DNA from: Agromyces allii | GTDB taxonomy: Bacteria > Actinomycetota > Actinomycetes > Actinomycetales > Microbacteriaceae | Reading direction: 5' to 3' | Assembly: GCF_009749385.1 (NCBI RefSeq) | Contig: NZ_WBIN01000001.1 | Span: 248,001-312,000 of the forward strand | DNA length: 64,000 nucleotides | In this document: in pieces, positions 29,543 to 44,424 of the stretch | Layout: every line of letters starts with the position of its first letter | Position numbering within the stretch: the first letter of the stretch is position 1 | Program-made: the position numbers and the translations under genes | Notes under the pieces: generated by a model | Database searches by the model: none | Seen by the model: the letters and a program-made list of their open reading frames with translations, nothing else | What the model was told of the DNA's origin: nothing

Positions 29543-30711
29543 TCTACCTCGACCACGCCGCGACGACCCCGGTGCGCCGCGAGGCGATCGAGGCGATGTG
29601 GCCGTACCTCACGGGCTCGTTCGGCAACCCCTCGAGCCGCCACGAGCTCGGCGAGGAGGCGGCCCGTGCGCTCGCGTGGGCGCGCTCCGAGGTGGCCGCG
29701 GTGATCGGATGCCGCCCTGGCGAGGTCGTGTTCACGAGCGGCGGCACCGAGGCCGACAACCTCGCGATCAAGGGCATGTCGCTCGCCCGACCGCGCGGAC
29801 GCCACCTCGTGATCTCCCCGATCGAGCACGAGGCCGTGCTCGAGTCGGCCGCGTACCTGGTGCGTCACCACGGCTTCACGGTGACCGAGGTCGCCGTCGA
29901 CCGCGGCGGGCTCGTGCATCCGTCGGCGCTCGCGTCGGCGATCAGACCCGATACCTCGCTCGTCTCCGTGCAGCTCGTGAACAACGAGATCGGCGCGATC
30001 CAGCCGATCGCCGAGCTCGCGGCCGTCGCGCACGAGGCCGGCGCACTCATGCACACCGATGCCGTGCAGGCCGCCGGGCACCTCGACCTGCGCCTCGACG
30101 GGCCGGGCGGCGCCGGCAGCCCGGGCGGGCTGGGCGTCGATGCGCTCTCGCTCGCCGGCCACAAGGTCGGCGCCCCGAAGGGCACGGGCGTGCTCGTCGC
30201 GCGCGGTCGCGTCGCGCTCGAACCCGTGCTGCACGGCGGCGGTCAGGAGCGCGGGCGTCGCTCCGGCACCGAGAACGTGGCCGGGGCGGTCGCCTTCGCC
30301 ACGGCGCTGCGCCTCGCCGAGTCCGAGCGGGCGGATGCCACGGCGCAGGCCGCGCGCCAGGGGCTCGAGTTGCGGGCGCGCATCCTCGCGGGAGTCGAGG
30401 GGGCGCAGCTCACGGGCGACGCCGACCGTCGCCTGCCCGGGACCGTCTCGTTCGTCTTCCCCGGCACGAGCGGTGAGGCCGTGCTGCTCGAGCTCGACCG
30501 GCTCGGCGTGACGTGCTCGAGCGGCTCGGCGTGCGCGGCCGGCAGCAGCGACCCCTCGCACGTGCTCACGGCCGTCGGCATCCCGGCCGACCTCGCACTC
30601 ACCGCCGTTCGCTTCACGCTCGGCCCGACGACGACCGACGAGGAGATCGCGGATGCCGCTGCGGCCGTCATCCGCGCGGTGTCGGCCGTGCGCGGTATCG
30701 TCGGAGCATGA
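29539..30711 (+). CDS. Cysteine desulfurase (NifS/IscS type) of the NAD operon
   Basis: PLP enzyme taking sulfur from cysteine. The 390-aa protein begins MIYLDHAATTPVRREA. The PLP lysine is K209 in SLAGHKVGAPKG; the active cysteine is C332 in SSGSACAAGSS, with a second cysteine at 326. The ATG overlaps the nadC stop (ATGA), so it belongs to the NAD operon. From context its likely job is to supply sulfur for the oxygen-sensitive [4Fe-4S] cluster of NadA, as with the NifS-like gene in the Bacillus nad locus. A general role in tRNA thiolation is also possible. Confidence 0.93.
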   Translation: MIYLDHAATTPVRREAIEAMWPYLTGSFGNPSSRHELGEEAARALAWARSEVAAVIGCRPGEVVFTSGGTEADNLAIKGMSLARPRGRHLVISPIEHEAVLESAAYLVRHHGFTVTEVAVDRGGLVHPSALASAIRPDTSLVSVQLVNNEIGAIQPIAELAAVAHEAGALMHTDAVQAAGHLDLRLDGPGGAGSPGGLGVDALSLAGHKVGAPKGTGVLVARGRVALEPVLHGGGQERGRRSGTENVAGAVAFATALRLAESERADATAQAARQGLELRARILAGVEGAQLTGDADRRLPGTVSFVFPGTSGEAVLLELDRLGVTCSSGSACAAGSSDPSHVLTAVGIPADLALTAVRFTLGPTTTDEEIADAAAAVIRAVSAVRGIVGA

Positions 30712-30878
30712 CCGACGCAAACGCTCCAGAGAACGACGCCGTCGAGGCTGCCGAGGCCGCGGCGGCGAACCCCGAGCTCGAAGAGCGACTGCGCTCCGAG
30801 CTCGCGCCCGAAGAGTCGATGTTCAAGGACTGGCTCCCCCGTCCGACCCCGATCGACGGGCCCGCTCCCGCTCCCTGA
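30708..30878 (+). CDS. Small acidic protein, 56 aa, last gene of the NAD operon
   Basis: Begins MTDANAPENDAVEAAE, has an acidic helical middle (NPELEERLRSELAPEE) and ends MFKDWLPRPTPIDGPAPAP. No family was recognised. The ATG overlaps the desulfurase stop (ATGA). TATCGT exactly six bases before this ATG could also give a separate leaderless transcript. Overlap and codon pattern make it likely real; a link to NAD or cysteine desulfurase activity is only positional. Confidence 0.65.
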   Translation: MTDANAPENDAVEAAEAAAANPELEERLRSELAPEESMFKDWLPRPTPIDGPAPAP

Positions 30879-31045
30879 GCGCCCTCGCACACGCCGATTC
30901 CATACGTTGCAATTCATCGTGCGGATCGGGAATAGCCCGGTGCCCCGCTCGGGTTGTCCCTGTGGTCGGTGACTTCCGTCACAGCTGACGAACCTTCTTG
31001 CGCGCCGCTGCGCGACGTCCACTTTCTGCCGATTGGATCCGCTCC

Positions 31046-32557
31046 GTGACCGAACGCGCCCTTCCAGAGGTCTCCACCACCGATTCCGGCCCTGTCGCCT
31101 CGACGGACCAGCACCACACCGACGCCGAGGCGCTGCACGGCGCCCGCAACTCCCGGGTGATCTGGCTGCTGCTGGCCGCAGCCTTCGTCGTGATCCTCAA
31201 CGAGACGATCATGGGCGTGGCGATCCCGCACCTCGTCACCGATCTCGGCATCACGATCTCCGAGGCGCAGTGGCTCACCACCGCGTTCATGCTCACGATG
31301 GCCGTCGTCATCCCGATCACCGGGTTCCTTCTGCAGCGGTTCTCGACGCGGGCCGTCTTCATCGCCGCGATGGGCCTGTTCTCGACCGGCACGCTCATCT
31401 CGGCCCTCGCACCGGGCTTCGAGATGCTGCTCGGCGGTCGCGTGGTGCAGGCAACCGGCACCGCGATCATGATGCCGCTGCTCATGACCACCCTCATGGA
31501 GCTCGTGGCGCCCTCCGACCGCGGCCGCTTCATGGGCCGCGTGTCGACCGTGATCTCGGTGGCCCCGGCCATCGGGCCCACGATCTCGGGCCTGATCCTC
31601 AGCTTCCTGTCGTGGCGCTTCATGTTCTGGCTCGTGCTGCCGATCGCCGTGGTCATGCTGATCATCGGCATCCGGCGCGTCGAGAACGTCAACACGCCCA
31701 AGCGCCTCCCGCTCGACGTGTTCTCGGTCGTGCTCTCGGCGATCGGCTTCGGCGGGCTCGTCTACGGGCTCAGCCTCATCGGCGGCGAGGCCGCCGGCAC
31801 GGCGACGCCCGCGCAGATGTGGATCTCGCTCGGCGCCGGCGCCCTCGGCATCCTCGCGTTCGTCGTCCGGCAGCTGCTGCTGCAGCGTCGCGACCGCGCC
31901 CTGCTCGACCTGCGTCCGTTCAAGTCCGGCAACTTCGCCGTCTCGATCGCGCTCATGACCGTCATGATGGCGGCGCTGTTCGGCACGATCATCCTGCTGC
32001 CGATCTACCTCCAGAACGTGCTGCACCTCGAGCCGATCATGACGGGCCTGCTGCTCCTGCCCGGCGGTCTCGTCATGGGCCTGCTCGGGCCCACCGTCGG
32101 CCGCCTCTACGACCGCTTCGGACCGCGACCGCTGCTCGTGCCCGGCAGCATCGTCGTGAGCGGCGTGCTCTGGGGGCTCACGCTCGTGTCGGAGCAGACC
32201 TCGCCGTGGTTGCTGCTGCTCGCGCACGTCGTGCTCTCGGCGGGGCTCGCGTTCATGTTCACCCCGCTCTTCACGACCGCACTCGGTTCGGTCGAACCGC
32301 GCTTCTACTCGCACGGCTCGGCGATCGTCGGCACCGTGCAGCAGGTCGGCGGCGCGGCGGGCACGGCGCTGTTCATCACCGTCATGGCCGCCGCGAGCGC
32401 CGCCGCGGCGCCCACCGCGAGCTCGGCCGAGGCGGCCCAGGCCGCCGGCATCCACACGGCATTCCTCGTGGGGGCGATCCTGTCGCTCTTCGCGATCGTC
32501 GGCAGCGCCTTCGTGCGGCGGCCGGCCGACAGCGGGGGCGAGTTCATCGCGCACTGA
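31046..32557 (+). CDS. MFS multidrug efflux transporter, DHA2 (14-TM) type
   Basis: A 503-aa inner-membrane drug:H+ antiporter. About 14 hydrophobic segments are visible. The loop 2-3 region contains TTAFMLTMAVVIPITGFL, and the DHA2-typical segment GRVVQATGTAIMMPLLMTT is intact. GTG 31046 gives a soluble ~35-residue N-terminus; TTG 30998 is an alternative. A -35/-10 pair TTGCAA...GAATAG in the 167-base upstream gap is a possible promoter. No regulator gene is adjacent, and the substrate is unknown. Confidence 0.9.
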   Translation: MTERALPEVSTTDSGPVASTDQHHTDAEALHGARNSRVIWLLLAAAFVVILNETIMGVAIPHLVTDLGITISEAQWLTTAFMLTMAVVIPITGFLLQRFSTRAVFIAAMGLFSTGTLISALAPGFEMLLGGRVVQATGTAIMMPLLMTTLMELVAPSDRGRFMGRVSTVISVAPAIGPTISGLILSFLSWRFMFWLVLPIAVVMLIIGIRRVENVNTPKRLPLDVFSVVLSAIGFGGLVYGLSLIGGEAAGTATPAQMWISLGAGALGILAFVVRQLLLQRRDRALLDLRPFKSGNFAVSIALMTVMMAALFGTIILLPIYLQNVLHLEPIMTGLLLLPGGLVMGLLGPTVGRLYDRFGPRPLLVPGSIVVSGVLWGLTLVSEQTSPWLLLLAHVVLSAGLAFMFTPLFTTALGSVEPRFYSHGSAIVGTVQQVGGAAGTALFITVMAAASAAAAPTASSAEAAQAAGIHTAFLVGAILSLFAIVGSAFVRRPADSGGEFIAH

Positions 32558-32573
32558 TCAGGTGCTCCGCACC

Positions 32574-32629
32574 TGAGAACCAACCGGCCCGCCCGGCGCA
32601 GCAGCGCCGGGCGGGCCGGTTGGTTCTCA
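32574..32629. terminator. 26-bp perfect hairpin, bidirectional terminator
   Basis: Arms 32574-32599 and 32604-32629 are perfectly complementary with an AGCA loop, in the gap between the convergent MFS and VWA genes. The longest perfect stem in the window. Confidence 0.9.
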
Positions 32630-32663
32630 TCCAGGTCGCGGTTCGATGCGCGACGGGCGATGT

Positions 32664-34499
32664 TCAGCCGCAGTCGGGGCGGCAGCTGCGCTGCGAGAGC
32701 GCATCGACGAGCACGATGCCGAGGTCTTCGGGCTTGGAGGCGGAGTAGGCGCCGCCCTTCGTGACCTTGGCGATCTTCTGCATGGCCTCGAGGTCGGTGT
32801 CGGGACCGAAGCCGATCATGATCACCGGCACGGGCTGCGAGCCCTCCTCGCCCTTCGCCAGCTCGGAGATGAGCGTGTCGAGGTCGATGCCGTTCTCGTC
32901 CTCGTTCTTGCCGTCGGTGATGAGCAGCACGGCGTTGACCTTCTCGGGGTCGTAGCCCTCGCGCACCCGGCCCACGGCGGCGAGCACGGTGTCGTAGAGG
33001 CCGGTCGCCCCGCCGAGGCGGCCGGGAAGGGACTGGATGATGCCCGCGATCTGCTGCGTGTGCGCCGCATCGCCGAGCGGCGCGATCGCGGCGAGCTCCT
33101 CGTAGTCGAGGTCGCCGTTGCGCATCGTCGAGAACGCCCACACGCCGAGGTCGACCTCGCCCGAGAACTTCGAGACCGCGTTCATGGCCGCCTGCTGGAA
33201 GATGTCGATGCGACGCAGGCCGTTCTCTGCGGGCTCCTCCATGGAACCGGAGACGTCGATGACGGAGAGGTAGCGGGCACGAAGCGACAGCACGCCCCAC
33301 GTGCGGAGCAGCGTGAGCGCGGTGGCCGAGTCGACGGGCAGCACCTGAGCCGCGGGGCCCTCGGGCGCGATGCCGAGCGTGTCGATCTTGCCGGCTCCGA
33401 GCGCCGTGCGGAATCCGGCAGCGGTGAGGCGGTCGTACGAGGCGGTCGCGGCCTTCTCGAAGGCGGCGAGCAGGCGCCCCCGTTCGGTGAGCGCCCGCGT
33501 GACATCGGAGGCGCCGGCTTCGGCGCTCCCGGTCGACGCGGAGACGGTCTGCACCCGTGCCGTCGACCCGTCGGAGACGGAGGTCTCGGCGCTGGGCTCG
33601 GCGGAATCGCCGCCGGCCTCGCCCTCGGCTGCGAGCGCGGCCTCGTCGGCGGCATCGCCGACGCGGACGAGCGGGTAGTCGAGCATCAGCGTGCCGTCGG
33701 TGGGGTACCCCGCCGTGAGCGTCTCACTCGGCTCGTCGCCGTTGTACTCGGCGACCTGCGCCTCGCTCGTGAGCACCACGCTCGGCTGCGCCGCCGAGGA
33801 GAGGGCTCCGAACGCCGCGCTCGTCGACGCGGGAATCGACTTTCCGAGCGCGATCATGGCCGCGGCCAGCGGGCGGGGGTCGTCGGCCGGCGCGTGGGCG
33901 CCGAGCCCGACGAGGCTCGTGAGGCTCGCCGCCGAGGCCTCGGGGTCGGGCAGGATCGCCGGCAGCGACCCGTCGAGCACGCGGGCCCAGGTCAGCGGTT
34001 CGCCGGCGATCTCGGTCGCGTCGGACGAGGCGGCGGCGAACACGACGGGCGTGACCGCGATCGTCTGGCCCACGCGCGCATTCGGGGTGGCCCGTCCGAG
34101 CGACGTGGCCGTGGCCGCGGCCCGGTCGACCCACACCGACGACTGCGGCACCCAGGCATCGACGTCGAGGCCGCCCGAGGCGAGCACCGCGGAGGTGTCG
34201 GCGGACTCCTGCGAGGTGATCTGGGTGCTGACGCAGCCGTCGTTGGCCGCATCGAAGTCGGCCGCGATGTCGGAGAGCACCGGCGCGATCGTCGTGTCGG
34301 CGACGATGCGCAGCTCTTCGACGCTCTCGCACGCCGACCCGGCTGCGGCCTGGTTCGGGTCGAGATGGCCGCCGATCCAGAGGTAGACGCCGGACGCGAC
34401 GACGCCGATGACGACGACTGCGGCGATGACGGACAGGTAGAGACCGCGTCTCGACTTCTTCGTCGTCGATGCGGTGACGCTGTGACGCCCCACGGACAC
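32664..34499 (-). CDS. Membrane-anchored substrate-binding/VWA domain protein
   Basis: A 611-aa protein with a basic cytoplasmic N-terminus, one TM (about 21-43), then an extracellular periplasmic-binding-like part (about 60-350, starting ELRIVADTTIAPVLSDIAAD). A C-terminal von Willebrand A domain (about 395-605) carries an intact MIDAS motif DVSGSM plus the downstream LLITDGKNED. Such fusions are known in actinobacteria but their role is not settled; metal-dependent binding of a surface ligand is the plain reading. Start GTG 34499 (a second in-frame GTG is two codons on). It is transcribed alone. Confidence 0.85.
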   Translation of the reverse strand: MSVGRHSVTASTTKKSRRGLYLSVIAAVVVIGVVASGVYLWIGGHLDPNQAAAGSACESVEELRIVADTTIAPVLSDIAADFDAANDGCVSTQITSQESADTSAVLASGGLDVDAWVPQSSVWVDRAAATATSLGRATPNARVGQTIAVTPVVFAAASSDATEIAGEPLTWARVLDGSLPAILPDPEASAASLTSLVGLGAHAPADDPRPLAAAMIALGKSIPASTSAAFGALSSAAQPSVVLTSEAQVAEYNGDEPSETLTAGYPTDGTLMLDYPLVRVGDAADEAALAAEGEAGGDSAEPSAETSVSDGSTARVQTVSASTGSAEAGASDVTRALTERGRLLAAFEKAATASYDRLTAAGFRTALGAGKIDTLGIAPEGPAAQVLPVDSATALTLLRTWGVLSLRARYLSVIDVSGSMEEPAENGLRRIDIFQQAAMNAVSKFSGEVDLGVWAFSTMRNGDLDYEELAAIAPLGDAAHTQQIAGIIQSLPGRLGGATGLYDTVLAAVGRVREGYDPEKVNAVLLITDGKNEDENGIDLDTLISELAKGEEGSQPVPVIMIGFGPDTDLEAMQKIAKVTKGGAYSASKPEDLGIVLVDALSQRSCRPDCG

Positions 34500-34702
34500 T
34501 CCAAGCCCGACGGCAGCAAGGGCACCGTCGCATCCTTCGATTCGGGTTCCCCCCGGGTAAAGGGGGAAGGATTTGGTTCAGTGTAGGTGACGCACCGCCT
34601 GAGACGAAAAATACTCGTCTTCACAGTGCGTGATCGCCGGCGTCGCCGGTGCGCGCTTGACGCCCCCGCCCCGCGGGAGTAGGCCGGTCGGCAGGTGCCG
34701 TG

Positions 34703-35371
34703 ATGATGCAACGAGTGTTCGAGGACCGCCGCGACGCGGGTCGCCGCCTGGCGATCCTGCTCCGCGAGCGCGGGCAGGACGACGGGCAGGGCGAGTGGTC
34801 GCGGCCGGTGGTGCTCGGGCTTCCGCGCGGCGGGGTGCCGGTCGCGGCCGAGGTCGCCGACGCCCTCGCGGCACCGCTCGACGTGCTCGTCGTGCGCAAG
34901 CTCGGGCTCCCCCACCGCGAGGAGGTGGCCATGGGTGCGATCGGCGAGCAGGGAGCGCGCGTGCTGAACGACGACGTGATCGCGCTCGGCGGCGTCGACG
35001 CCCGCACGCTCGCGGCGGTCGAACGGCACGAGCGCGCGGAGCTCGAGGCTCGCGTGCGCCGGTTCCGCGGCGACGCCCCGCCGATCGAGCTCGCGGGGCG
35101 CACGGCGATCGTGGTCGACGACGGGGTGGCGACGGGCGCGACCGCCCGGGTCGCATGCCTCGTCGCGCGGGCGCGGGCCGCGTCATCCGTCGTGCTCGCT
35201 GTGCCGGTGTCCGCCCCCGACGCGGCCGTCGACCTCGTGGCCGCACCCGAGATCGACGAGCTCGTGTGCCTCGCGACGCCCGCCGGCTTCATGGCCGTCG
35301 GGCAGTACTACCTCGACTTCACGCAGACGACGGATGCCGAGGTGCAGGCGCTGCTCGCCGCGAACCGCTGA
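34703..35371 (+). CDS. Phosphoribosyltransferase-family protein
   Basis: A 222-aa type I PRTase-fold protein. The PRPP loop is AIVVDDGVATGATAR (about 137-151), and the N-terminal PVVLGLPRGGVPVAAEVA plus VVRKLGLPHREEVAMGAI match the stand-alone PRTases whose substrate is unknown. The start is one of three stacked codons (GTG 34700, ATG 34703, ATG 34706); AGGTG fits 34703 best. Its 3' end overlaps the PrmC-like gene on the opposite strand by 53 bp. The 200-base gap upstream holds a TTCCCCC/GGGGGAA inverted repeat (34547-34568) and the promoters of both divergent genes. Confidence 0.85.
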   Translation: MMQRVFEDRRDAGRRLAILLRERGQDDGQGEWSRPVVLGLPRGGVPVAAEVADALAAPLDVLVVRKLGLPHREEVAMGAIGEQGARVLNDDVIALGGVDARTLAAVERHERAELEARVRRFRGDAPPIELAGRTAIVVDDGVATGATARVACLVARARAASSVVLAVPVSAPDAAVDLVAAPEIDELVCLATPAGFMAVGQYYLDFTQTTDAEVQALLAANR

Positions 35372-36230
35372 CACGGGTGCCGACGACGATCGTGCCGCCG
35401 CGTTCGTCGTCGCGCACGATCCCGGCCTGGAGCCCGCCCGCCTCGACGAGCGCCGCCGTGGCCGCGGCCTGCTGCCGACTGGTCTCGATGAGCAGTCGGC
35501 CGCCCGGCGCGAGCCATTCGAGGGCGGATGCCGCGACCCACCGGTGCACGTCGAGGCCGTCGGCCCCGCCGTCGAGTGCGACGAGCGCCTCGTGGTCGCG
35601 CGCCTCGGGCGGCATCATGGCGATCTCGTCGGTGGGCACGTAGGGCGCGTTCACGGCGAGCACGTCGACCCGTCCGCGGAGGTCGGTCGGCAGCGGCGCG
35701 AAGAGGTCGCCCTCGACGACGCGCGCGCCGCGCGGCTCGAGGTTGCGGCGGGCGGCTCGGACGGCCGCCGGATCGAGGTCGGCCGCGACGAGCTCGACCG
35801 GCCCCGCGGCATCCGCGATCACGGCTCCGATCGCCCCCGCGCCGCAGCAGAGGTCGACGACGACGGGCACCCGGCCGGATGCCGCGACCGCCGTCGCGAG
35901 GCCCGACGCCGACTCGGCGAGCAGCTCGGTGCGGCGCCGCGGCACGAACACGCCCGGTTCGAGCAGGATGCGGAGTCCGCCGAACTCCGCCCAGCCCAGC
36001 AGTTGCTCGAGCGGATCGCCGGCCACGCGCCGCGCGACCAGTCGCTCGAGCTCGGCCGCGGCATCCGGGGCACGGTCGCCCGCGCCGGCGCCCGCGCCGG
36101 CACCGAACCGCTCGGCGACCGCGGCTTCGAGCAGCGCCGCCTCGTCCTCGGCGAACACGCAGCCCGCGGCGCGCAGGCGTGCGACGAGCGCGGGGTCGGG
36201 CTCGGGTGCAGGCACAGCGGCATCGATCAC
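35319..36230 (-). CDS. PrmC-like protein N5-glutamine methyltransferase
   Basis: A 303-aa SAM-dependent methyltransferase of the PrmC-related actinobacterial group with unknown substrate. Motif I is VVDLCCGAGAIGA, the acidic motif II is VAADLD, and the glutamine-binding motif reads NAPYVP where classical PrmC has NPPY. An N-terminal helical domain (to about 100) carries a (GA)n stretch. The altered motif argues against release-factor methylation as its sole job. Start ATG 36230. The C-terminal tail is encoded opposite the end of the PRTase gene. Confidence 0.85.
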   Translation of the reverse strand: MIDAAVPAPEPDPALVARLRAAGCVFAEDEAALLEAAVAERFGAGAGAGAGDRAPDAAAELERLVARRVAGDPLEQLLGWAEFGGLRILLEPGVFVPRRRTELLAESASGLATAVAASGRVPVVVDLCCGAGAIGAVIADAAGPVELVAADLDPAAVRAARRNLEPRGARVVEGDLFAPLPTDLRGRVDVLAVNAPYVPTDEIAMMPPEARDHEALVALDGGADGLDVHRWVAASALEWLAPGGRLLIETSRQQAAATAALVEAGGLQAGIVRDDERGGTIVVGTRVSGSRRAAPAPRHPSSA

Positions 36231-36293
36231 CCGGGAATGCTAGCCCCGGGCGCCGTGTGACGCACCGAGGATGCACGCGTCGCGCGGATGCCC

Positions 36294-36299
36294 TAACAT
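36294..36299 (+). promoter_or_regulatory. -10 box of the trp leader
   Basis: TAACAT seven bases before the leader-peptide ATG at 36307, so the leader mRNA would start at or within a base or two of the ATG. Confidence 0.6.
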
Positions 36300-36306
36300 C
36301 GAGCCC

Positions 36307-36345
36307 ATGACCACGTCGACCTGCAGCTGGTGGCCCGCCTCCTAG
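36307..36345 (+). CDS. trpL: Tryptophan leader peptide
   Basis: Twelve codons reading MTTSTCSWWPAS then TAG. Two adjacent Trp codons (36328-36333) just before a hairpin region and a fused anthranilate synthase gene are the hallmark of a ribosome-mediated attenuator. It has no Shine-Dalgarno and appears leaderless. Streptomyces has a comparable Trp-rich leader before its own anthranilate synthase gene. Confidence 0.85.
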   Translation: MTTSTCSWWPAS

Positions 36346-36392
36346 GCGGACTCCACGTTTCGACGTACGACGACCGCCCGAGGGCGGTCGTT
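36335..36392 (+). promoter_or_regulatory. Trp attenuator (alternative hairpins and terminator)
   Basis: Segment 1 CCGCC (36335-36339), directly after the Trp codons, can pair with segment 2 GGCGG (36345-36349). The terminator is a 10-bp stem, arms 36370-36379 and 36382-36391, followed by TT. Segment 2 can instead pair with CCGCC (36374-36378) inside the terminator's 5' arm. A ribosome stalled at the Trp codons would cover segment 1 and free segment 2 to break the terminator. The pairings are read directly; the mechanism is inferred. Confidence 0.75.
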
Positions 36393-36445
36393 TCGCGTTC
36401 TGCGGAAGGTTCCGGCCCGAGGGCCAGAAGACCACCGGAGACCTC

Positions 36446-38455
36446 ATGACCGCACCGCACCCGGCCATCTCGAACGCGGCCGCGCACCCCGCCGAGCAGT
36501 CGCGCGACCGGCCGACCGCGCTGCTCGCCTCGCTGCTCGACGCGGGCGCCGACGCACCGCCGTTCGCCGTGATCCGACGCGAGCACGACGCGACGCTCGA
36601 CGTGCTCGTCGGCGAGGTGGTCGACGTCGACCTGCTCGCCGACATCCCGCTCGACGGCGACGAGGTGCTCGCGCTCGTGCCGTTCCGGCAGGTGCGGGAG
36701 CGCGGGTTCGAGGCGCACGACGACGGCGCGCCGATCCGCTGCCTCGTCGTGCGCGAGCGTGCCGTGCTCCCGGTCGCGGAGGCGATCGAGCTGCTGCCGC
36801 GGCATCCGATCGCCGTCGACCTCGACGTCGATGTGAGCGACGAGGCGTACGCCGACATCGTGCGTCGCGTGATCCAGGAGGAGATCGGGCGAGGCGAGGG
36901 TGCGAACTTCGTGATCCGCCGCGAGTTCGTGGGCGAGGTCGACGTGCCGCCGTCGACCGCGGTGCTCGGCTGGCTTCGAGCGCTGCTCGAGCACGAGCAG
37001 GGCGCGTTCTGGACGTTCGCGGTGCACACGCCCGGGCTCGCGGCGGTCGGGGCGACGCCCGAGCGCCACGTCTCGTCGATCGACGGGCTCGTCTCGATGA
37101 ACCCGATCAGCGGCACGTTCCGCCACGACGTGCTGACCGAGGCCGATGCCGAGACCTCCGTCGACGAGCGCCTGCTCGCGTTCCTGCACGACGTCAAGGA
37201 GCGCGAGGAGCTCGTGATGGTCGTCGACGAGGAGCTGAAGATGATGAGCGCGGTCTGCCCAGAGGGCGGCCGCATCCGCGGACCCTTCCTCAAGCGGATG
37301 TCGCGCCTCACCCATACCGAGTACCTGCTCGAGGGGCACTCCGACCTCGACCCGCGCGAGGTGCTCCGCCGCACGATGTTCGCCCCGACCGTCACGGGAT
37401 CGCCGATGGGCAACGCCTGCTCGGTCATCGCCAGGCACGAGCCGACCGCGCGCGGCTACTACGCGGGCGTGTTCGCCCGGTTCACGCCGACGGCCGCCGG
37501 CTACGACGTCGACGCGCCGATCCTCATCCGCACCGCGTACCTGCGCGACGGCCGCGTGAGTGTGCCCGTCGGTGCGACGCTCGTGCGACACTCCGACCCC
37601 GTCGGCGAGGTCGCCGAGACGCGCGCGAAGGCGGCCGGCATGCTCACGGCGCTCGGCGCGATTCCGCGGGCGGATGCCGCAGCACGGCCGACCGCGCCGG
37701 GTACGGCCGCGCCGGGCACCGCCGCGCCGAGCGTCGGGCCGAACGCCGCACCCGACGCCGGTGCAACGGCCACCGCCACGGCCACGGCCGTCGACCCGCA
37801 CGCCGAGCTGCTCGCGGCACGCAACGACCAGCTCGCCGCGTTCTGGAGGTCGCCGCAGCACGCGCACGAGCCGCGCGGGCGCTCGGCGCTCGTGATCGAC
37901 GCGAACGACGACTTCACGACGATGCTCGCGCACCAGCTGCGGCATCTCGGGCTCGACGTGCGGCTCGTGCCGTGGCACGAGGCGCCCGACGCGGCCTCCG
38001 AGGATCTCGTGGTGTTCGGCCCCGGGCCGGGCGACCCCCGCGACGCGGCCGACCCGCGCATCGCGCGCCTGCGCGAGCTCATCGCGGCGCGGCTCGAGGC
38101 CGACCGACCGCTCCTGGCGGTGTGCCTCAGCCATCAGGTGCTCTCGGATCTCGCAGGCCTCGAGCTCGCGCCTCTGCCGACGCCCCGCCAGGGCGTGCAG
38201 CTGCCGATCGAGGTGTTCGGCGAGACCGCGGCGATCGGCTTCTACAACACGTTCTCGGCGCTCGCGCCCGACGGTTCGACAACGCGTCGTCTCGACCTCG
38301 AGGTCGCCTCGGATGCGACGACGGGCGTCGTGCACGCCCTGCGCGGCCGTGGCGTCGCATCCGTCCAGGGGCACCTCGAGTCGGTGACCTCGCCCGACGG
38401 CCTCGCGCTGCTCGAGCGGCTGGTCGACGGGGTGCTGGCCGGCGCGAAGGTCTGA
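36446..38455 (+). CDS. Fused anthranilate synthase (TrpE-TrpG; PhzE-like)
   Basis: A 669-aa bifunctional enzyme using chorismate and glutamine. Residues about 1-410 form the chorismate-binding part (VGATPERHVSS, MNPISGTFRH, APTVTGSPMGNACSVI). A repetitive Ala/Pro/Thr linker (about 412-450) leads to a class I glutamine amidotransferase with Cys near 561 in LLAVCLSHQVL and the His-Glu pair in QGHLES. The AVCLSHQ form and domain order resemble PhzE, so aminodeoxyisochorismate synthesis is an alternative. The Trp-Trp leader argues for tryptophan supply, and no phenazine genes are near. ATG 36446 follows GGAG. Confidence 0.9.
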   Translation: MTAPHPAISNAAAHPAEQSRDRPTALLASLLDAGADAPPFAVIRREHDATLDVLVGEVVDVDLLADIPLDGDEVLALVPFRQVRERGFEAHDDGAPIRCLVVRERAVLPVAEAIELLPRHPIAVDLDVDVSDEAYADIVRRVIQEEIGRGEGANFVIRREFVGEVDVPPSTAVLGWLRALLEHEQGAFWTFAVHTPGLAAVGATPERHVSSIDGLVSMNPISGTFRHDVLTEADAETSVDERLLAFLHDVKEREELVMVVDEELKMMSAVCPEGGRIRGPFLKRMSRLTHTEYLLEGHSDLDPREVLRRTMFAPTVTGSPMGNACSVIARHEPTARGYYAGVFARFTPTAAGYDVDAPILIRTAYLRDGRVSVPVGATLVRHSDPVGEVAETRAKAAGMLTALGAIPRADAAARPTAPGTAAPGTAAPSVGPNAAPDAGATATATATAVDPHAELLAARNDQLAAFWRSPQHAHEPRGRSALVIDANDDFTTMLAHQLRHLGLDVRLVPWHEAPDAASEDLVVFGPGPGDPRDAADPRIARLRELIAARLEADRPLLAVCLSHQVLSDLAGLELAPLPTPRQGVQLPIEVFGETAAIGFYNTFSALAPDGSTTRRLDLEVASDATTGVVHALRGRGVASVQGHLESVTSPDGLALLERLVDGVLAGAKV

Positions 38456-38464
38456 GGAGCGCGA

Positions 38465-39049
38465 TCAGCCGAGCGCGATGACCGCCTCCAGCGTCTCGGC
38501 GTCGAGCTCGCGGTCGGCGAAGACGACTCGTTCGAGGTGGGTCGTGACGGCGGCGGACGGCGCCGCGCTCGATGCGCCGCGCCACAGGAGCCGGAGACCG
38601 AGTCGCTCGAGCACGCGCACCGAAGCCGGGTTGTTCGCGAGCGCCCGCGCCGTGACCGGGGCATCGGGCTGCGCCCTGCGCGCCGCGTCGAGCGAGATCG
38701 CCGCGGCCTCGCCGGCGAGACCGTGCCCCCAGGCCTCCGGCGCGAACCGGTACCCGAGGTTCCATGCGCCGAACGGGAGCATCGCGGCTCCCGCGGACCC
38801 GATGAACGACCCCGGCGCGAGGGCCCCGATCGGTTCGCGAAGCACCACGGCGCACTGCCCGAACCCGAACTCTCGCCGGCTCTGCATCGAGCGCTCGATC
38901 GCACGCGCCGAGTCGCCCCGGCTCGTGTGCACGCCGCTCGGCAGGTGCGCCCAGGTGCGCGGGTCGCCGTAGACGGCGAAGTGGTCGTCGACGTGGTCGA
39001 GGGTGAGCGGGGTGAGCAGTAGGCGGTCGGTGCGCAGTTCGTCGATCAT
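38465..39049 (-). CDS. GNAT family N-acetyltransferase (RimJ/RimL-like)
   Basis: A 194-aa protein starting IDELRTDRLLLTPLTLDHVD, the usual opening of RimJ/RimL-type GNAT proteins. Acetyl-CoA contacts are seen in AWGHGLAGEAAAISLDAA, and the end motif ALANNPASVRVLERLGL is typical. The substrate is unknown. ATG 39049 is used; a GTG lies one codon upstream. It converges on the anthranilate synthase gene with a 9-base gap. Confidence 0.88.
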   Translation of the reverse strand: MIDELRTDRLLLTPLTLDHVDDHFAVYGDPRTWAHLPSGVHTSRGDSARAIERSMQSRREFGFGQCAVVLREPIGALAPGSFIGSAGAAMLPFGAWNLGYRFAPEAWGHGLAGEAAAISLDAARRAQPDAPVTARALANNPASVRVLERLGLRLLWRGASSAAPSAAVTTHLERVVFADRELDAETLEAVIALG

Positions 39050-39103
39050 CACGCGCAAGTGTGGCAGCGGCATCCGACATCCCGACCCCGCTAGCCTTCG
39101 GGC

Positions 39104-40339
39104 ATGGGTGACGGGCGCTCGCGCGAGGTCGAGCTCGTGCTGTGCCTGCCTTCGGGCGAGGTGCTCGGCACGAGCCCGCGGTTCTCGGCCGACCAGCCGT
39201 GGACCATGCTCGCGCAGGAGGTCGTGGTCGCCGCTCGCGCGTCGCTCGGACTCGAGGCGATCGTCCTGCGGCTGCTCGAGGTCGTTCGACGCCCCGACGG
39301 CGAGCCCGACCTCGTGCGGTACCTCGCCGAGGTCGACGCCGTGCCGCCGATCCGGTTGACGGATGCCGGGGCGAGCGTCGCGGCATCCGAACCGCTCAGA
39401 ATGGCGTGGGCCGAGCCCGGCGGCCCGACCCGCGCGCTGCGCTGGTCCGTGCACGAACTCGCCGGGCAGGGCGTCGCGCTCACCGGTCCCGCGCAGCAGG
39501 TGCGCACGTGGAACCTCTCGAGCGTGTGGCGGCTGCCGACCGACCGGGGCGACGTGTGGCTCAAGCAGGTGCCGCCGTTCTTCGCGCACGAGGGCGCGAT
39601 CATCGAGCGGCTCGGGCGGCAGGGGCGGCACGGCCGCCACGCGGTGCCGCACGTCATCGCTCGCGCCGTCGACCGGGTGCTGCTCGCGGACATCCGGGGC
39701 GAGGACCTCTACGACGGCTCGACCGCCGAGCAGCAGCGCGCCATGATCGACCTGCTCATCGGCATCCAGCTCGACGAGGCCGGCAGCCTCGACGACCTGC
39801 TCGCGCTCGGACTGCCCGACTGGCGCATGCCCGCCCTCGCCGCGCCGGGCGCGCACGCCCTCGAGGCGACCGCCGACCGTCTCGACCGTGCCCAACGCGC
39901 CGCCGTGGCATCGCTCGTCGACGGCCTCGACGTGCGCGCCGCCCGGATCGCCGCGTGCGGACTGCCCGACACGCTCGTGCACGGCGACTTCGCCCCCGGC
40001 AACGTACGCGGACGCGGGCTCCACCTGACGCTGCTCGACTGGGGCGACTCGGGCGTCGGGCACCCGTTGCTCGACGCGGCCGCCTTCACCGACCGGGTCG
40101 ACGCCGAGCACGCGGAGCTCGCCCGCCGGCACTGGACCGAGGCGTGGGAGGCGGCTGTGCCCGGCTCCGACCCCGGGCGGGCGGCGATGCTGCTCGCACC
40201 CGTGGCCGCGCTGCGGCAGGCGGTCATCTACCAGGGGTTCCTCGATCGCATCGAGCCCGACGAGCGGGTCTACCACCGCGACGACCCCGAGGTCTGGCTC
40301 GGTCGCGCGGCCCGACTGTTCGACGGCGAGGCCGCCTGA
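39104..40339 (+). CDS. APH-family phosphotransferase with NUDIX-like N-terminus
   Basis: A 411-aa protein. The C-terminal two-thirds form an aminoglycoside-phosphotransferase/choline-kinase fold with the catalytic loop LVHGDFAPGNVR and the metal motif LLDWGDSG. The first ~95 residues (ELVLCLPSGEVLGTSPRF, then QEVVVAARASLGLEAIVLRL) look like a degraded NUDIX domain lacking the catalytic box. TAGCCT stands exactly six bases before the ATG, indicating a leaderless mRNA. The substrate is not evident; an antibiotic-resistance role is not implied. Confidence 0.82.
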   Translation: MGDGRSREVELVLCLPSGEVLGTSPRFSADQPWTMLAQEVVVAARASLGLEAIVLRLLEVVRRPDGEPDLVRYLAEVDAVPPIRLTDAGASVAASEPLRMAWAEPGGPTRALRWSVHELAGQGVALTGPAQQVRTWNLSSVWRLPTDRGDVWLKQVPPFFAHEGAIIERLGRQGRHGRHAVPHVIARAVDRVLLADIRGEDLYDGSTAEQQRAMIDLLIGIQLDEAGSLDDLLALGLPDWRMPALAAPGAHALEATADRLDRAQRAAVASLVDGLDVRAARIAACGLPDTLVHGDFAPGNVRGRGLHLTLLDWGDSGVGHPLLDAAAFTDRVDAEHAELARRHWTEAWEAAVPGSDPGRAAMLLAPVAALRQAVIYQGFLDRIEPDERVYHRDDPEVWLGRAARLFDGEAA

Positions 40340-40385
40340 CCCTGCCGGTGCTGATGGTGCTGCCGCTGCCGCTGCCGCTGCCCGG

Positions 40386-41252
40386 CTACTTCAGCAACCG
40401 CGACAGCACGCGGTCGGCGAGCGGCTTGCCACCCGTCTGGCACGTCGGGCAGTACTGGAACGTCGAGTCGGCGAACCGCACCTCGCGCACGGTGTCGCCG
40501 CACACCGGGCACGCCTCGCCCGTTCTGGCGTGCACCTGCATGCCGCGCCGCTTCGCGTCTTTGAGGTCTGCGGGCGGGCGGCCGGATGCCGCAGCCACCG
40601 CCTCGGCGAGCGTGTCGCGCAGGGCGGTGAACAGGGTCTCGACCTGCTCGGGCGTGAGCTTCGCGGCGAGCGCGTACGGCGACATGCGGGCGGCGTGCAG
40701 GATCTCGTCGGAGTACGCGTTGCCGATGCCCGCGAACACGGACTGGTCGCGCAGCACGCCCTTGATCTGCGTGCGGCGCCCGTCGAGCACGGCCTGGAAG
40801 TCGGCGAGCGTGAAACCGGGCGCCGTGGGGTCGGGTCCGAGGCGCGCGATGCCCGGGACATCGTCGGGGTCGCGCACGACGTACACCGCGAGCGACTTCT
40901 TCGTGCCGGCCTCGGTGAGGTCGAAGCCCGCGCCGTCGTCGAGCTTCACGCGCAGTGCGATCGGACCCTTGCCCGGCTTCAGGATCGTCTTCGGCACCTC
41001 GTCGAACCATCGCAGCCAGCCTGCACGGGCGAGGTGGAAGACGAGGTGCAACGGCTCGGCGCCGACGGTCAGGTCGATGAACTTGCCGTGCCGTGCGACC
41101 GCCGTGATCGTGCCGCCGGCGAGCGCGTGCAGCGGAGGATCGAAGGTCTTCAGTGCCGAGATCGCGGTGACGGACGCCGACGTGATCGCGTGGCCGACCG
41201 CGCGCTCGCGGAGGAACGCGGCGAGCGCATCGACCTCCGGCAGTTCGGGCAC
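40386..41252 (-). CDS. Fpg/Nei family DNA glycosylase, paralogue 1
   Basis: A 288-aa base-excision repair glycosylase/AP lyase. In this family the N-terminal Pro (after Met removal) is the nucleophile. An ATG at 41261 would give MSVVPELPEV and bury it, so I choose the GTG at 41252, giving MPELPEV with Pro2-Glu3. With this start the catalytic-loop lysine is Lys57 (RHGKFI), the same position as in E. coli Fpg. The H2TH region (GIGNAYSDEILHAA) and a C-terminal zinc finger (CPVCG ... CPTCQTGG) are complete. Lesion preference cannot be told. Confidence 0.9.
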   Translation of the reverse strand: MPELPEVDALAAFLRERAVGHAITSASVTAISALKTFDPPLHALAGGTITAVARHGKFIDLTVGAEPLHLVFHLARAGWLRWFDEVPKTILKPGKGPIALRVKLDDGAGFDLTEAGTKKSLAVYVVRDPDDVPGIARLGPDPTAPGFTLADFQAVLDGRRTQIKGVLRDQSVFAGIGNAYSDEILHAARMSPYALAAKLTPEQVETLFTALRDTLAEAVAAASGRPPADLKDAKRRGMQVHARTGEACPVCGDTVREVRFADSTFQYCPTCQTGGKPLADRVLSRLLK

Positions 41253-41364
41253 GACACTCATGCTGCCACCGACCGGCGACGTCGGCCAGCGCCCGCGCGG
41301 CCGGCTGTGCCTCGGGTCGCCCGCGACTGTTCCCCTCGCACGCCGCCCCGATTAGGGTCGGAGC

Positions 41365-41730
41365 ATGCCGAACGAGCAGAGCAGCGACATCCACGTCTTC
41401 ACCCTCGCCGTCGAAGGCGAGCCGATCTCGACCGAAGACGACGCGATCGACCTGATCGGCAGCGTCTGGTCGCACGATGCGAAGACCGCGGCGGTGCCCG
41501 TCGAGCGACTCGATCCCGCATTCTTCGACCTGAGCACCGGGCTCGCGGGCGCATTCACGCAGAAGCTCGTGAACTACCGCGTGCGGCTCGCGATCGTCGG
41601 CGACGTGACCGGGTACACCGAGGCGAGCCGTGCCCTGAGCGACTACGTGTGGGAGTCGAACCGCGGCGACCAGGTGTGGTTCGTGCGCGACGACGCCGAG
41701 CTCGCGAAGCGGCTCGCCGCCGTCGGGTAG
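41365..41730 (+). CDS. DUF4180 family protein
   Basis: A 121-aa protein with the family hallmarks AFFDLSTGLAGAFTQKLVNYR and LAIVGDVTGY, predicted alpha/beta, ending QVWFVRDDAELAKRLA. The function of the family is not known to me. TAGGGT lies exactly six bases before the ATG, so the mRNA is leaderless. It is divergent from the first Fpg/Nei gene and upstream of a small ORF and the second Fpg/Nei gene. Confidence 0.85.
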   Translation: MPNEQSSDIHVFTLAVEGEPISTEDDAIDLIGSVWSHDAKTAAVPVERLDPAFFDLSTGLAGAFTQKLVNYRVRLAIVGDVTGYTEASRALSDYVWESNRGDQVWFVRDDAELAKRLAAVG

Positions 41731-41792
41731 CGGCCGGGGAACGCCTGGGTGGCCGCCGGATGGCCGCCTGTCGCCCCTGGGATCGCCCGCGG

Positions 41793-41839
41793 CATCCGTA
41801 CGGATGTTCGAATGTCGGTGGTTGGTGAGAAGCTCTCAC
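41793..41839 (+). promoter_or_regulatory. Two palindromes before the 74-aa gene
   Basis: CATCCGTACGGATG (41793-41806) is a perfect 14-bp palindrome. GTGAGA-AGC-TCTCAC (41825-41839) is an inverted repeat ending one base before the ATG at 41841. Their position suggests operator sites, or a hairpin blocking the start codon in the second case. Confidence 0.5.
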
Positions 41840-41840
41840 T

Positions 41841-42065
41841 ATGAAGACGATCGAGCTGCGGCAGGCCCGCCACCTCGAGGTGGGCGACACCCTCGTGAAC
41901 GTCGCCGGTCATGTCTACGAGGTCACCAAGGTGACCCGCATCGGCCGGGGCATCCGCGTGCAGTACCTGACCTCCGAGGGGCAGCCGGGGCGATTCACCG
42001 CCGCACCCGAGTCGCTCAGCCGCGTCTACGCGGGCTCGTCGCGCAGCACGCCGATCTCGGCCTGA
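41841..42065 (+). CDS. Small beta-rich hypothetical protein, 74 aa
   Basis: Starts MKTIELRQARHLEVGDTLV and looks like a small beta-barrel (alternating VAGHVYEVTKVTRIGRGIRV and VQYLTSEG) with a Ser/Arg-rich end. No family was recognised. Two palindromes lie immediately upstream. It is convergent with the second Fpg/Nei gene with a 36-base gap. Composition fits a real gene; its role is unknown. Confidence 0.7.
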   Translation: MKTIELRQARHLEVGDTLVNVAGHVYEVTKVTRIGRGIRVQYLTSEGQPGRFTAAPESLSRVYAGSSRSTPISA

Positions 42066-42101
42066 TCCGAAGGGTGCCGGCCAGAGGCGGCCGGGCGGCC
42101 C

Positions 42102-42956
42102 TCACTCGCCCTTGAGCGGCAGCACCTCGCCGCCGGTCTGACAGGTCGGGCAGTACTGCGCGGTCGTGCTCGCGAACGAGAAGTCGGCGATCGCGTCGCC
42201 GCAGACCGGGCACGGCTCGCCCGTGCGTCCGTGTGCGCGCATCGCGGCGACCTTCTCGGCCTTGAGCCGGGCGATCGGCACACCGCGTCGCTCGGCGATC
42301 GCGGCCCCGACCACCCCGACCGTCGCGTCGAACAGCCGGTCGAGCTCGTCGCCGCCGAGCGTCGCGGCGTGCCCCACGGGCGAGAGCTTCGCCGCGTGCA
42401 GGATCTCGTCGGAGTACGCGTTACCGATGCCCGCGAGCGACTCCTGCTCCTGCAGCACGGCCTTGACCTGCTTGCGACGCCCGACGACCGCCGCGTCGAA
42501 GTCGGCTCGCGAGAACTGCGCCGAAGCCGGATCGGGGCCGAGCTTGACGACCGCGGGCACCTCGAGCGGGTCGTCGACCACCCAGCATCCGAGCGAGACC
42601 CACCCGCCGGCATCGGTCAGTTCGAGCGCCGGCCCGTCGTCGAACACGAGCGTCGCGAGCGTGGGCGGAGGCGGGTCGGATGCCGCGGCATCCGTTTCGG
42701 CGACGGACCCGGCCCAGCGCGCCCACCCGTGACGACCGAGCGACACCACGAGGTGCCCCGCTGGGCCGAAGCCCAGGTCGAGGAGCTTGCCGTGCCGGGT
42801 CACGCCGCTCACCCGCTCGCCGACGAGCGACTCGGGCGGGCGGCCGCGCGTCTTCGCGATGCGGAACTCGATCACGTCGACATCGACGAGCCTTCGACCC
42901 GTCAGACGGGCGTCGAGTTCTTCGGCGAGTGCCTGCACTTCCGGTGACTCGGGCAT
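42102..42956 (-). CDS. Fpg/Nei family DNA glycosylase, paralogue 2
   Basis: A 284-aa protein clearly homologous to the one at 40386-41252. The start ATG 42956 (not 42974) gives MPESPEV with the catalytic Pro2-Glu3, and the loop lysine again falls at 57 (RHGKLL). The H2TH region reads GIGNAYSDEILHAAKLSP and the zinc finger CPVCGDA ... CPTCQTGGE. The two paralogues share long stretches in these regions but differ in the N-terminal domain, so they probably handle different lesions. Confidence 0.9.
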   Translation of the reverse strand: MPESPEVQALAEELDARLTGRRLVDVDVIEFRIAKTRGRPPESLVGERVSGVTRHGKLLDLGFGPAGHLVVSLGRHGWARWAGSVAETDAAASDPPPPTLATLVFDDGPALELTDAGGWVSLGCWVVDDPLEVPAVVKLGPDPASAQFSRADFDAAVVGRRKQVKAVLQEQESLAGIGNAYSDEILHAAKLSPVGHAATLGGDELDRLFDATVGVVGAAIAERRGVPIARLKAEKVAAMRAHGRTGEPCPVCGDAIADFSFASTTAQYCPTCQTGGEVLPLKGE

Positions 42957-43074
42957 GCGAGAAGCCTTGCACAAGCAGGCGACATCGGGCAGGCGACATC
43001 GCGGCGGAGGCGTCGCGATGCCGATCGCGCGTCCGGGTTGGTGCCGTGTCCGCGGCGACCACTACGATCGCCCC

Positions 43075-43809
43075 GTGGACCCGAACACGGCGCGGCAGCT
43101 GCTGCGCATCTTCCCCGACGCCCCGCTCACCGTCGCTCTCGTCGAGCGCGCCTACGCCGGCGAGGCGTGGGCCCGCCACCCCTCGCGATATCCCGATCCG
43201 GCGCAACGCCAGGAGGCGGAGGCGTGGGCGGAGCGTCTCCGGGCTGCTCGGAGCACGCTGCTCGCCGAGGCCGCCACGGTCGGCGCCACGGCGTCGACCG
43301 GCCGCGCGCGACTCGGCCCGCTCGCCGTGACCGGCATCGTCGTCGCATCGGTCCTGACCCTGACGACGATCGTGGGCGGCGTCGTCGGGCTGGGGATCAT
43401 CATCGCGCGGGCCGCTCCCGGGATCGCGGAGAGTTCCAGCCGGTGGGTGCTCGACGACGAAGGCGACGAGGCCGGCCCCGATCATGGCGAACGACTCACG
43501 GCACTCGAGACCGACTTCGAGTTCCCGGCCGGACTCGAGCTCTACACCGACGGCCGCTACGACGACCTCTGCTCGAACATCTACGAACGCGGCTGCTGGC
43601 AGCTCGACGTGATCCCGATCGCGGCCTGCGACGAGATGAGGATCGAGTCCGGGTACAGCAACGACGAGGCATCACCGGATCCCGAAGAGACCCGCGTCAG
43701 CTACGTCGACGATGTCGAGCCGTTCGAACGAGTGCCGATCGTCTACGGCGACGACGCCTACGAAGAAAGCTGGATCGTCGACGTCACGTGCACGACCGAC
43801 GAAACCTGA
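43075..43809 (+). CDS. Hypothetical single-TM protein, J-domain-like N-terminus
   Basis: A 244-aa protein. The first ~65 residues are helical, and the stretch RHPSRYPDPAQRQEAEAWA recalls the loop and helix of a J domain, though without a clean HPD. One TM (about 78-105, TGIVVASVLTLTTIVGGVVG) follows, then an acidic exported domain with four cysteines (SNIYERGCW, AACDEM, DVTCTTDE). TACGAT lies exactly six bases before the GTG, giving a leaderless start. No function can be assigned. Confidence 0.75.
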   Translation: MDPNTARQLLRIFPDAPLTVALVERAYAGEAWARHPSRYPDPAQRQEAEAWAERLRAARSTLLAEAATVGATASTGRARLGPLAVTGIVVASVLTLTTIVGGVVGLGIIIARAAPGIAESSSRWVLDDEGDEAGPDHGERLTALETDFEFPAGLELYTDGRYDDLCSNIYERGCWQLDVIPIAACDEMRIESGYSNDEASPDPEETRVSYVDDVEPFERVPIVYGDDAYEESWIVDVTCTTDET

Positions 43810-43878
43810 ACGACGGGTCGCAGCGGTGGTCCGAACCGAGCGTCAGCCGGCGAGCGTGAGCCGAACGCGCCGACCCGC

Positions 43879-44424
43879 TCAGGCGGCGGTCCGCTGCGCG
43901 ACCTCCACGAGGTCGTCGAGCAGCTCGCGACCCTCCTGCCAGTCGCCGAGGTCGCTCGCCGCGTTGATGTGCCCGAGCGGTCCGACCGACACGAAGCCCG
44001 CGCCGAGGCGCTCGGCGAGCTCCGCGGCGAATGCGCGGCTTCCGTACGGGTCGTCGTCGCTCGCCACCACGAGGGCGGGCAGTCCGAGCGGGCGAACGCC
44101 GTCACGGGCGAACTCCCTCGCCTGCTCGGGGTAGTGCTCGCCGTCCGGGTCGGGCGGCGCGACGAGCAGCACGGCCGATGCGCCGCCGGGGTTGCGCGCG
44201 AGCCATTCGGCGACCGCGAGACATCCGAGGCTGTGCGCGACGATGACGGCGTCGGGCCCGGCCGACTCGCTCGCACGGTCGAGCGCGGCGAGCCAGTCGT
44301 CGAGGCGCGGCTCGTCCCACGACGTCGGCGCGATGCGCACGCTCTGCTCGAGGTCGCGCTCCCAGAGCGTCTGCCAGTGGGTGGGCCCCGAGCCGCCGAT
44401 GCCGGGCACGATGAGGTGGGTCAT
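43879..44424 (-). CDS. RBBP9/YdeN family alpha/beta hydrolase
   Basis: A 181-aa serine hydrolase of the compact RBBP9/YdeN group. The nucleophile is Ser65 in VAHSLGC, the acid lies in SDDDP (about 123-125) and the base is His152 in LGHIN. The family start HLIVPGIGGSGPTHWQTLWE is intact. The substrate is unknown. It is a single-gene unit, upstream of the ABC-F stop on the same strand. Confidence 0.9.
   Translation of the reverse strand: MTHLIVPGIGGSGPTHWQTLWERDLEQSVRIAPTSWDEPRLDDWLAALDRASESAGPDAVIVAHSLGCLAVAEWLARNPGGASAVLLVAPPDPDGEHYPEQAREFARDGVRPLGLPALVVASDDDPYGSRAFAAELAERLGAGFVSVGPLGHINAASDLGDWQEGRELLDDLVEVAQRTAA

Follow-up and report, generated by a model that had tools for sequence, protein, structure and literature searches.

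A candidate leaderless tryptophan attenuator in front of a fused TrpE-TrpG gene in Agromyces allii

The window analysed here is a 64,000-nucleotide (nt) stretch of the Agromyces allii genome (contig NZ_WBIN01000001.1, positions 248,001 to 312,000), in which a gene for a fused TrpE-TrpG protein is preceded by a short open reading frame (ORF) with two adjacent Trp codons. The question raised by this locus is whether the short ORF and the complementary segments that accompany it (36294-36446, forward strand) sense tryptophan, and how a ribosome would be loaded on a start codon that appears to lie at the very 5′ end of the message. The original prediction placed here a Trp-Trp leader, a GGCGG that can pair with either of two CCGCC copies, and a terminator stem of 10 base pairs (bp); its positions and sequences for all of these are borne out by re-reading. 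From the anatomy of the region, its conservation, the pairing across genus-level groups and a switch in the folding models, we infer a transcription start, termination and a response to tryptophan, and the element is very probably a leaderless, ribosome-mediated transcription attenuator that senses charged tRNA-Trp.

In the proposed mechanism, transcription would begin at, or about one base from, the leader ATG, so that ribosomes would load without a Shine-Dalgarno site. With no ribosome loaded, the RNA would form one long hairpin made up of an outer stem and the pairing of segments 1 and 2 (1:2), segment 2 would be tied up, and the terminator (3:4) would form. When tryptophan is short, the ribosome would stall at either Trp codon and cover segment 1 together with the 5′ strand of the outer stem; segment 2, now free, would pair with segment 3 (2:3) before segment 4 is made, and the polymerase would continue into the fused gene. 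When tryptophan is plentiful, the ribosome would reach the stop codon and cover segment 2, and the terminator would form.

Conservation of the leader and of its promoter spacing

A gene for the fused protein is present in 34 of 60 genomes of the genus; a draw of 249 family genomes has it in 31, three of which are already among the genus genomes. The family set examined consists of 62 loci, namely all 34 from the genus and 28 others. At 61 of the 62 loci, including 34 of 34 in the genus, the gene is preceded by a Trp leader whose end is WWPAS or a variant of it. The first search, which located leaders by their adjacent Trp codons and ignored the promoter, returned 59 of the 61; L050 and L066 were added afterwards. 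Tandem Trp codons are present in 60 of the 61 leaders, the exception being L050, where a GTG leader (VRTSIRSPRWPAS), some 100 nt ahead of the gene, has AGG in place of one of the two Trp codons. The first codons of the leader vary (MTTSTCS, MTSSNQN, MRSTFLT, MFAIRF), whereas the alignment of all 61 is free of gaps between the Trp codons and the end of segment 2, and conservation is highest in the Trp codons and segments 1-3. Both the Trp codons and the pairings, on which the original prediction depended, are kept in the relatives.

A few leaders differ in detail. Seven of them (L046, L047, L049, L052, L043, L038 and L114) carry an altered tail after the Trp codons (TA, SAR, LTA, HCA) and, judged by eye, seem to retain the 1:2 hairpin through changes in both arms. 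At L060, the alignment suggests a degenerate terminator arm behind an intact Trp leader and intact segments 1 and 2.

The start of the leader lies at a nearly constant distance from a TANNNT promoter motif. All 61 family leaders have this motif 6 or 7 nt 5′ of an in-frame start codon (ATG or GTG), as compared with 68 of 15,730 other ATG/GTG triplets in the same loci (0.43%; 128 of 15,790 with the leader starts included). Over the 155 leaders that were kept, the spacing is 7 nt in 89, 6 nt in 64 and 8 nt in 2. Because the spacing is 6-7 nt in every family leader, a leaderless start is implied by the sequences, for which this fixed spacing is the strongest evidence; it also counts against a transcription start upstream of the leader. 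The earlier claim of an apparently leaderless Trp-Trp leader ORF before a fused anthranilate synthase is thus supported by comparative evidence. A longer leader ORF from an upstream in-frame ATG was dropped, as that ATG precedes the -10 element.

The element is found in 31 genus-level groups of actinobacteria. A class-wide draw contains a homologue in 43 of 148 genomes, five of these within the family, and 25 loci outside the family, the best of a longer list, were analysed. Of these 25 loci, 21 have adjacent Trp codons in a leader that TANNNT precedes by 6 to 8 nt; with L090, whose leader has one Trp, the total is 22 of 25. The second class set, the best 80 of 573 named loci, partly overlaps the genomes of the other draws and has a leader at 72 of 80; L120 and L124 have too little upstream DNA. 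The search of these 80 loci itself required TANNNT at 5 to 8 nt, within 400 nt upstream. As the motif was built into the search, the spacing in this set is not independent and other leaders may have been missed. Fused homologues with 47-59% identity stand behind Trp leaders in other families of the class. An RNA model run on the window's own genome has one strong match (1.6e-34), which is the leader element; the second match (4.4e-5) comes from the opposite strand of this site, and weaker ones have values of 0.019 and above. L183, a weaker match of the RNA model, lies directly after a long ORF (by eye).

Competing pairings and the modelled ribosome switch

After its ATG, the leader in the window reads ACC ACG TCG ACC TGC AGC TGG TGG CCC GCC TCC TAG, and direct reading with indexed coordinates places the tandem Trp codons at 36328-36333 and the stop codon at 36343-36345 (other features are collected in Table 1). 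The terminator stem joins 36369-36378 to 36383-36392, with a G-U as its outermost pair. The outer stem (36313-36319 with 36360-36366) extends the 1:2 hairpin by 7 bp. In the window fold, the predicted antiterminator (-11.7 kcal/mol) comprises GGCGG:CCGCC, three more pairs and a four-pair UUCG hairpin; this UUCG-loop hairpin (36355-36366) shares 36360-36366 with the 3′ strand of the outer stem. Both the outer stem and the inner pairs of the antiterminator were missed when the element was described as a minimal attenuator with alternative pairings only five base pairs long.

Table 1. Features of the leader region and the fused gene in the window
Feature	Position	Strand	Remarks
-10 element TAACAT	36294-36299	+	ends 7 nt 5′ of leader ATG (36307)
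Leader ORF MTTSTCSWWPAS, 12 codons and stop	36307-36345	+	apparently leaderless; Trp leader upstream of the fused gene in 61/62 family loci
Outer stem, 5′ strand ACGUCGA (leader codons 3-5)	36313-36319	+	pairing probability 0.80 for 36316:36363 without ribosome; permutation tests
Segment 1, CCGCC	36335-36339	+	Trp codons to segment 2 gap-free in 61/61; 0/10,000 permutations
Segment 2, GGCGG	36345-36349	+	partner of segment 1 or segment 3
Outer stem, 3′ strand UCGACGU	36360-36366	+	permutation test and window fold
Segment 3, CCGCC	36374-36378	+	within 5′ arm of terminator
Terminator hairpin 3:4	36369-36392	+	10 pairs, loop CGAG, weak U-tract UUUCGCGUU
Shine-Dalgarno-like GGAG of the structural gene	36437-36440	+	ends five bases 5′ of the gene start
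Fused TrpE-TrpG protein, 669 residues, apparently monocistronic	36446-38455	+	ORF list, profile and structure searches

The competing pairings were examined with a permutation test that compares the pairing of segments from the same locus with that of segments from different loci, one locus being taken per group in 31 genus-level groups. Own 1:2 and own 2:3 pairings each beat all 10,000 permutations. The groups are partly labelled by us: four are metagenome-assembled genomes (MAGs), and loci of Microbacterium, Rathayibacter and Jiangella were joined by likeness to g85, g46 and g125, respectively. L147, a MAG counted outside the family, falls within it in a tree of 55 proteins.

The outer stem, in which the first part of the leader ORF pairs with the region ahead of the terminator, is matched by 0 of 10,000 permutations in each of five draws, and it also beats all 10,000 in the 19 groups labelled as outside the family. 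In the family alone, the result is 0 of 10,000 for 52 distinct pairs and 2, 4 and 5 of 10,000 in three one-per-genus draws of 12. The 3′ region in the five draws and in the 19-group test was cut at the terminator, which is a second definition chosen after the first result was known; the terminators for this cut were picked by script, and some of the picks (L060, L149, L163) look wrong by eye. When the 3′ stretch is shuffled, 0 of 500 shuffles reach the observed mean, and taken singly only 14 of 31 loci pass the 5% level. RNAalifold, applied to the leader alignment A1, in which the outer stem is visibly misaligned between genera, predicts no outer stem, and its covariation term is just -0.15.

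The switch itself was modelled by folding the RNA up to segment 3 while the ribosome footprint was shifted codon by codon. In the window, 1:2 is predicted while the ribosome is at codons 2-6. At Ser7 and at both Trp codons the prediction changes to 2:3, which is also obtained at Pro, though more weakly; from Ala onwards to the stop codon neither pairing is predicted. A ribosome placed at the last Trp codon yields the predicted 2:3 antiterminator in 124 of 126 distinct leaders, as compared with 31 when the leader is unblocked and 23 when the ribosome is at the stop codon. With the leading edge varied from 10 to 15 nt, 2:3 forms in 25 to 30 of the 31 groups at the last Trp codon and in 8 to 11 at 9 nt downstream. 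Taken together, the permutations and the occlusion folds support mutually exclusive 1:2, 2:3 and 3:4 pairings.

As regards the terminator, the best downstream hairpin lies above the 95th percentile of shuffles in 111 of the 126 distinct leaders. That a terminator is "found" in 155 of 155 leaders is uninformative by itself, because some hairpin turns up in 91% of shuffled stretches. The script-chosen hairpins are followed by a mean of 4.7 T in 10 nt over the 155 leaders, seven of which have none.

Several observations weigh against attenuation by a Trp-sensing leader or against parts of it. The 5′ side of the switch is not sharp, as ribosomes stalled 9 and 12 nt before the last Trp codon give 2:3 in 101 and 74 of the 126 leaders (24 and 16 of the 31 groups). 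At full length, the terminator has a probability of 1.00 in every ribosome state that was modelled. Antitermination would therefore have to be kinetic, and in such a model the antiterminator would be needed only for the time the polymerase takes to pass. In the window, the U-tract is weak and the consensus terminator scan missed the hairpin (the consensus promoter and terminator scans have 0 and 0 matches). A cruder definition of the 3′ side of the outer stem gives a weaker result, 39 to 369 of 10,000 over five draws. The reversed 3′ stretch still pairs at -11.1 kcal/mol, as compared with -13.2 kcal/mol for the actual one, and part of the strength of the outer stem is thus due to composition. 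Within the genus, the pairs barely vary and there is no covariation above shuffles. L045, from a 1.4-Mb genome, is the sole one of the 62 family loci without a leader, and no leader was found at L080, L087 and L091 of the class draw and at L164 and L167-L171 of the named loci, despite upstream DNA. Eight of the 10 loci where no leader was found belong to one supported clade in the tree of 55 proteins, which would fit a paralogous group that either lost Trp control or never possessed it.

The terminator that forms at equilibrium in every modelled state would also suit an alternative in which the short ORF senses nothing and the hairpin either acts as a terminator of fixed, partial effect or serves RNA stability; a report on altered candidate codons in an ilvB leader, in the available part of PMC1262725, points in the same direction. 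This alternative is improbable, since 60 of 61 family leaders retain tandem Trp codons despite variable first codons of the peptide, and none of the 61 has a gap between the Trp codons and segment 2.

Control could also act mainly at the loading of ribosomes on the leaderless start, with the outer stem near the start deciding and the Trp codons only modulating. The outer stem has at least 5 pairs in 125 of the 126 distinct untranslated leaders folded up to segment 3, and it begins within the first 4 nt in 74 of them. It begins that early in 0 of 30 leaders of the window's own genus, so that the start codon is free in the model there, which weakens this explanation; the high conservation of the Trp codons and segments 1-3, unmatched elsewhere in the leader, also speaks against it and leaves it very unlikely. 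A related extension of the attenuator, possible but doubtful, is that in leaderless attenuators across the class the first leader codons double as a conserved strand of the outer stem, and that the circuit reads the capacity for leaderless initiation as well as the charging of Trp-tRNA. Before such an outer stem closed, a 70S ribosome would have only a brief opportunity to load on the bare 5′ end. PMC7298713 describes trans-acting roles for rnTrpL/peTrpL of Sinorhizobium meliloti, a 14-residue leaderless leader before trpE(G). A comparable effect of a released short RNA or peptide on other messages is hardly credible here, given that conservation of the peptide is confined to its end (mostly WWPAS), a stretch that also encodes segment 1, and the rest varies.

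The single-sequence fold of the region is unremarkable (z -1.77; 10 of 200 shuffles are equally good). A search with all 4227 Rfam models at E-values up to 1 has no match overlapping 36294-36446 and two sub-threshold matches in 30000-44000; a T-box or riboswitch was dropped, there being no Rfam match.

The fused enzyme and its neighbourhood

The fused gene is apparently monocistronic, since the next listed ORF, on the opposite strand, ends ten bases past its stop codon in the ORF listing. For its product, the closest solved structure, best by far, is 3r74 (463.4 bits over residues 36-659, covering both domains), which is PhzE. Enzymes of the PhzE kind make 2-amino-2-deoxyisochorismate and not anthranilate; the fused enzyme may carry out either reaction, the loss of canonical trpE in G035 (see below) speaking for anthranilate. 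None of the 25 NCBIfam models listed reaches its own cut-off for the fused protein, including TIGR01815 (TrpE-clade3) with 128.9 bits against a cut-off of 739.15.

A canonical trpE (731.6 bits) is found elsewhere in the same genome, about a dozen bases after an ORF that resembles hisI by eye, a gap too short for a leader. At an E-value of 1e-150, 59 of the 60 genus genomes contain canonical trpE (58 of 60 are over the cut-off), and G035 is the one without it. This genome is a single contig rated 100% complete; it has three weaker trpE matches, one of which is the fused gene (L065), preceded by the leader MQPASTRSWWPAS. Its trpB is intact, and the operon around it (L179, G035:C1:2545500-2554000, about 3730) contains hisF, hisI, a membrane protein gene, trpC, trpB and trpA and no trpE, the names other than trpB having been assigned by similarity to the own genome and by eye. 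With canonical trpE absent, the strongest candidate left for the anthranilate synthase of G035 is the fused protein with its putative attenuator, and this loss supports such a function of the fused protein. The possibility that the fused gene is solely a phenazine gene was dropped in view of the loss of canonical trpE in G035 and of the separate clade that holds eight of the 10 proteins without a leader.

The locus provides a testable regulatory element that came from the reading of a single genome, and a prediction for the control of an enzyme of the aromatic pathway. With the start, the sensor codons and the switch within about 86 nt, it would also make a compact system for the coupling of leaderless initiation and transcription.

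Other features nearby are noted for completeness. Between terminator and gene, 36411-36439 contains a small hairpin, GGCCC-GA-GGGCC (36414-36425), whose GGCC core recurs in many genus mates by eye, and a possible UCCGG:CCGGA pairing, seen by eye in some genus mates and not in all, adjoins the Shine-Dalgarno sequence of the structural gene. By eye, the divergent neighbour (35319-36230, minus strand) resembles glutamine methyltransferases of the HemK/PrmC type. A sub-threshold Rfam match to Actino-ugpB RNA at 35368-35447 on the minus strand (26.9 bits against a gathering threshold of 42.5, E-value 0.19) lies inside this divergent ORF and is probably due to chance.

Relation to known trp leaders

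The trp attenuator of enterobacteria works by competing segments 1:2, 2:3 and 3:4. The Agromyces element shares this logic but differs in that its leader has no Shine-Dalgarno start and forms an outer stem from its first codons. The original prediction regarded a leaderless attenuator peptide as unusual, which holds with respect to the enterobacterial model, but such leaders are already published for S. lividans and S. meliloti (available parts of PMC8079986 and PMC7298713).

In S. lividans, two trp leaders are reported as leaderless, one of them before a monocistronic trpE (PMC8079986, available part). The window element resembles TrpL1 of that species in its adjacent Trp codons, apparently leaderless start, predicted hairpins with a terminator, and apparently monocistronic gene for a putative anthranilate synthase. 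A trp attenuator of S. venezuelae (Lin et al. 1998, as cited in the available parts of PMC1262725 and PMC4833913) and a leaderless cysteine attenuator of mycobacteria (as cited in the available part of PMC13236596) are also on record. In the class draw, homologues of the same fused protein are preceded by leaders of the MFAHSTQNWWWTAPPAAR type, which are close to the S. lividans MFAHSTRNWWWTAHPAAH as given in the published text available. The leader in the window has 12 codons and two Trp, whereas the available description of TrpL1 gives 18 codons and three Trp. In the window, the stop codon overlaps the 1:2 loop and the first base of segment 2 (9 nt after the last Trp codon), whereas that of TrpL1 lies further downstream.

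The trpE(G) gene of S. meliloti is a fused gene. Its product presumably belongs to TrpE-clade3 (TIGR01815), unlike the fused protein in the window, which is outside that clade. The S. meliloti rnTrpL transcript begins with the ATG of a 14-residue leader before trpE(G) (PMC7298713, available part). The window element would share with it a leader ATG as the 5′ end, attenuation and a trpE(G)-type gene downstream.

Leifsonia xyli is a member of the same family as A. allii. It appears in the genome list of PMC1262725 (Seliverstov et al. 2005), whose trp section, in the available part, names attenuators only in Corynebacterium and Streptomyces. Those attenuators, like the present one, have a GC-rich complementary triple after repeated UGG codons; the word "leaderless" has 0 occurrences in the text of PMC1262725. 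No trp attenuator of this family appears in the titles among the open-licence matches listed, in a search that was not aimed at Agromyces by name, and no comparable outer stem is described in the available parts of PMC8079986, PMC7298713 and PMC1262725. A leaderless Trp leader before an anthranilate synthase gene is already known, and the novelty is modest in this respect. What seems new in comparison with these systems is the spread of the element, its fixed promoter-to-start spacing, the conserved outer stem, and a genome that appears to rely on the fused enzyme.

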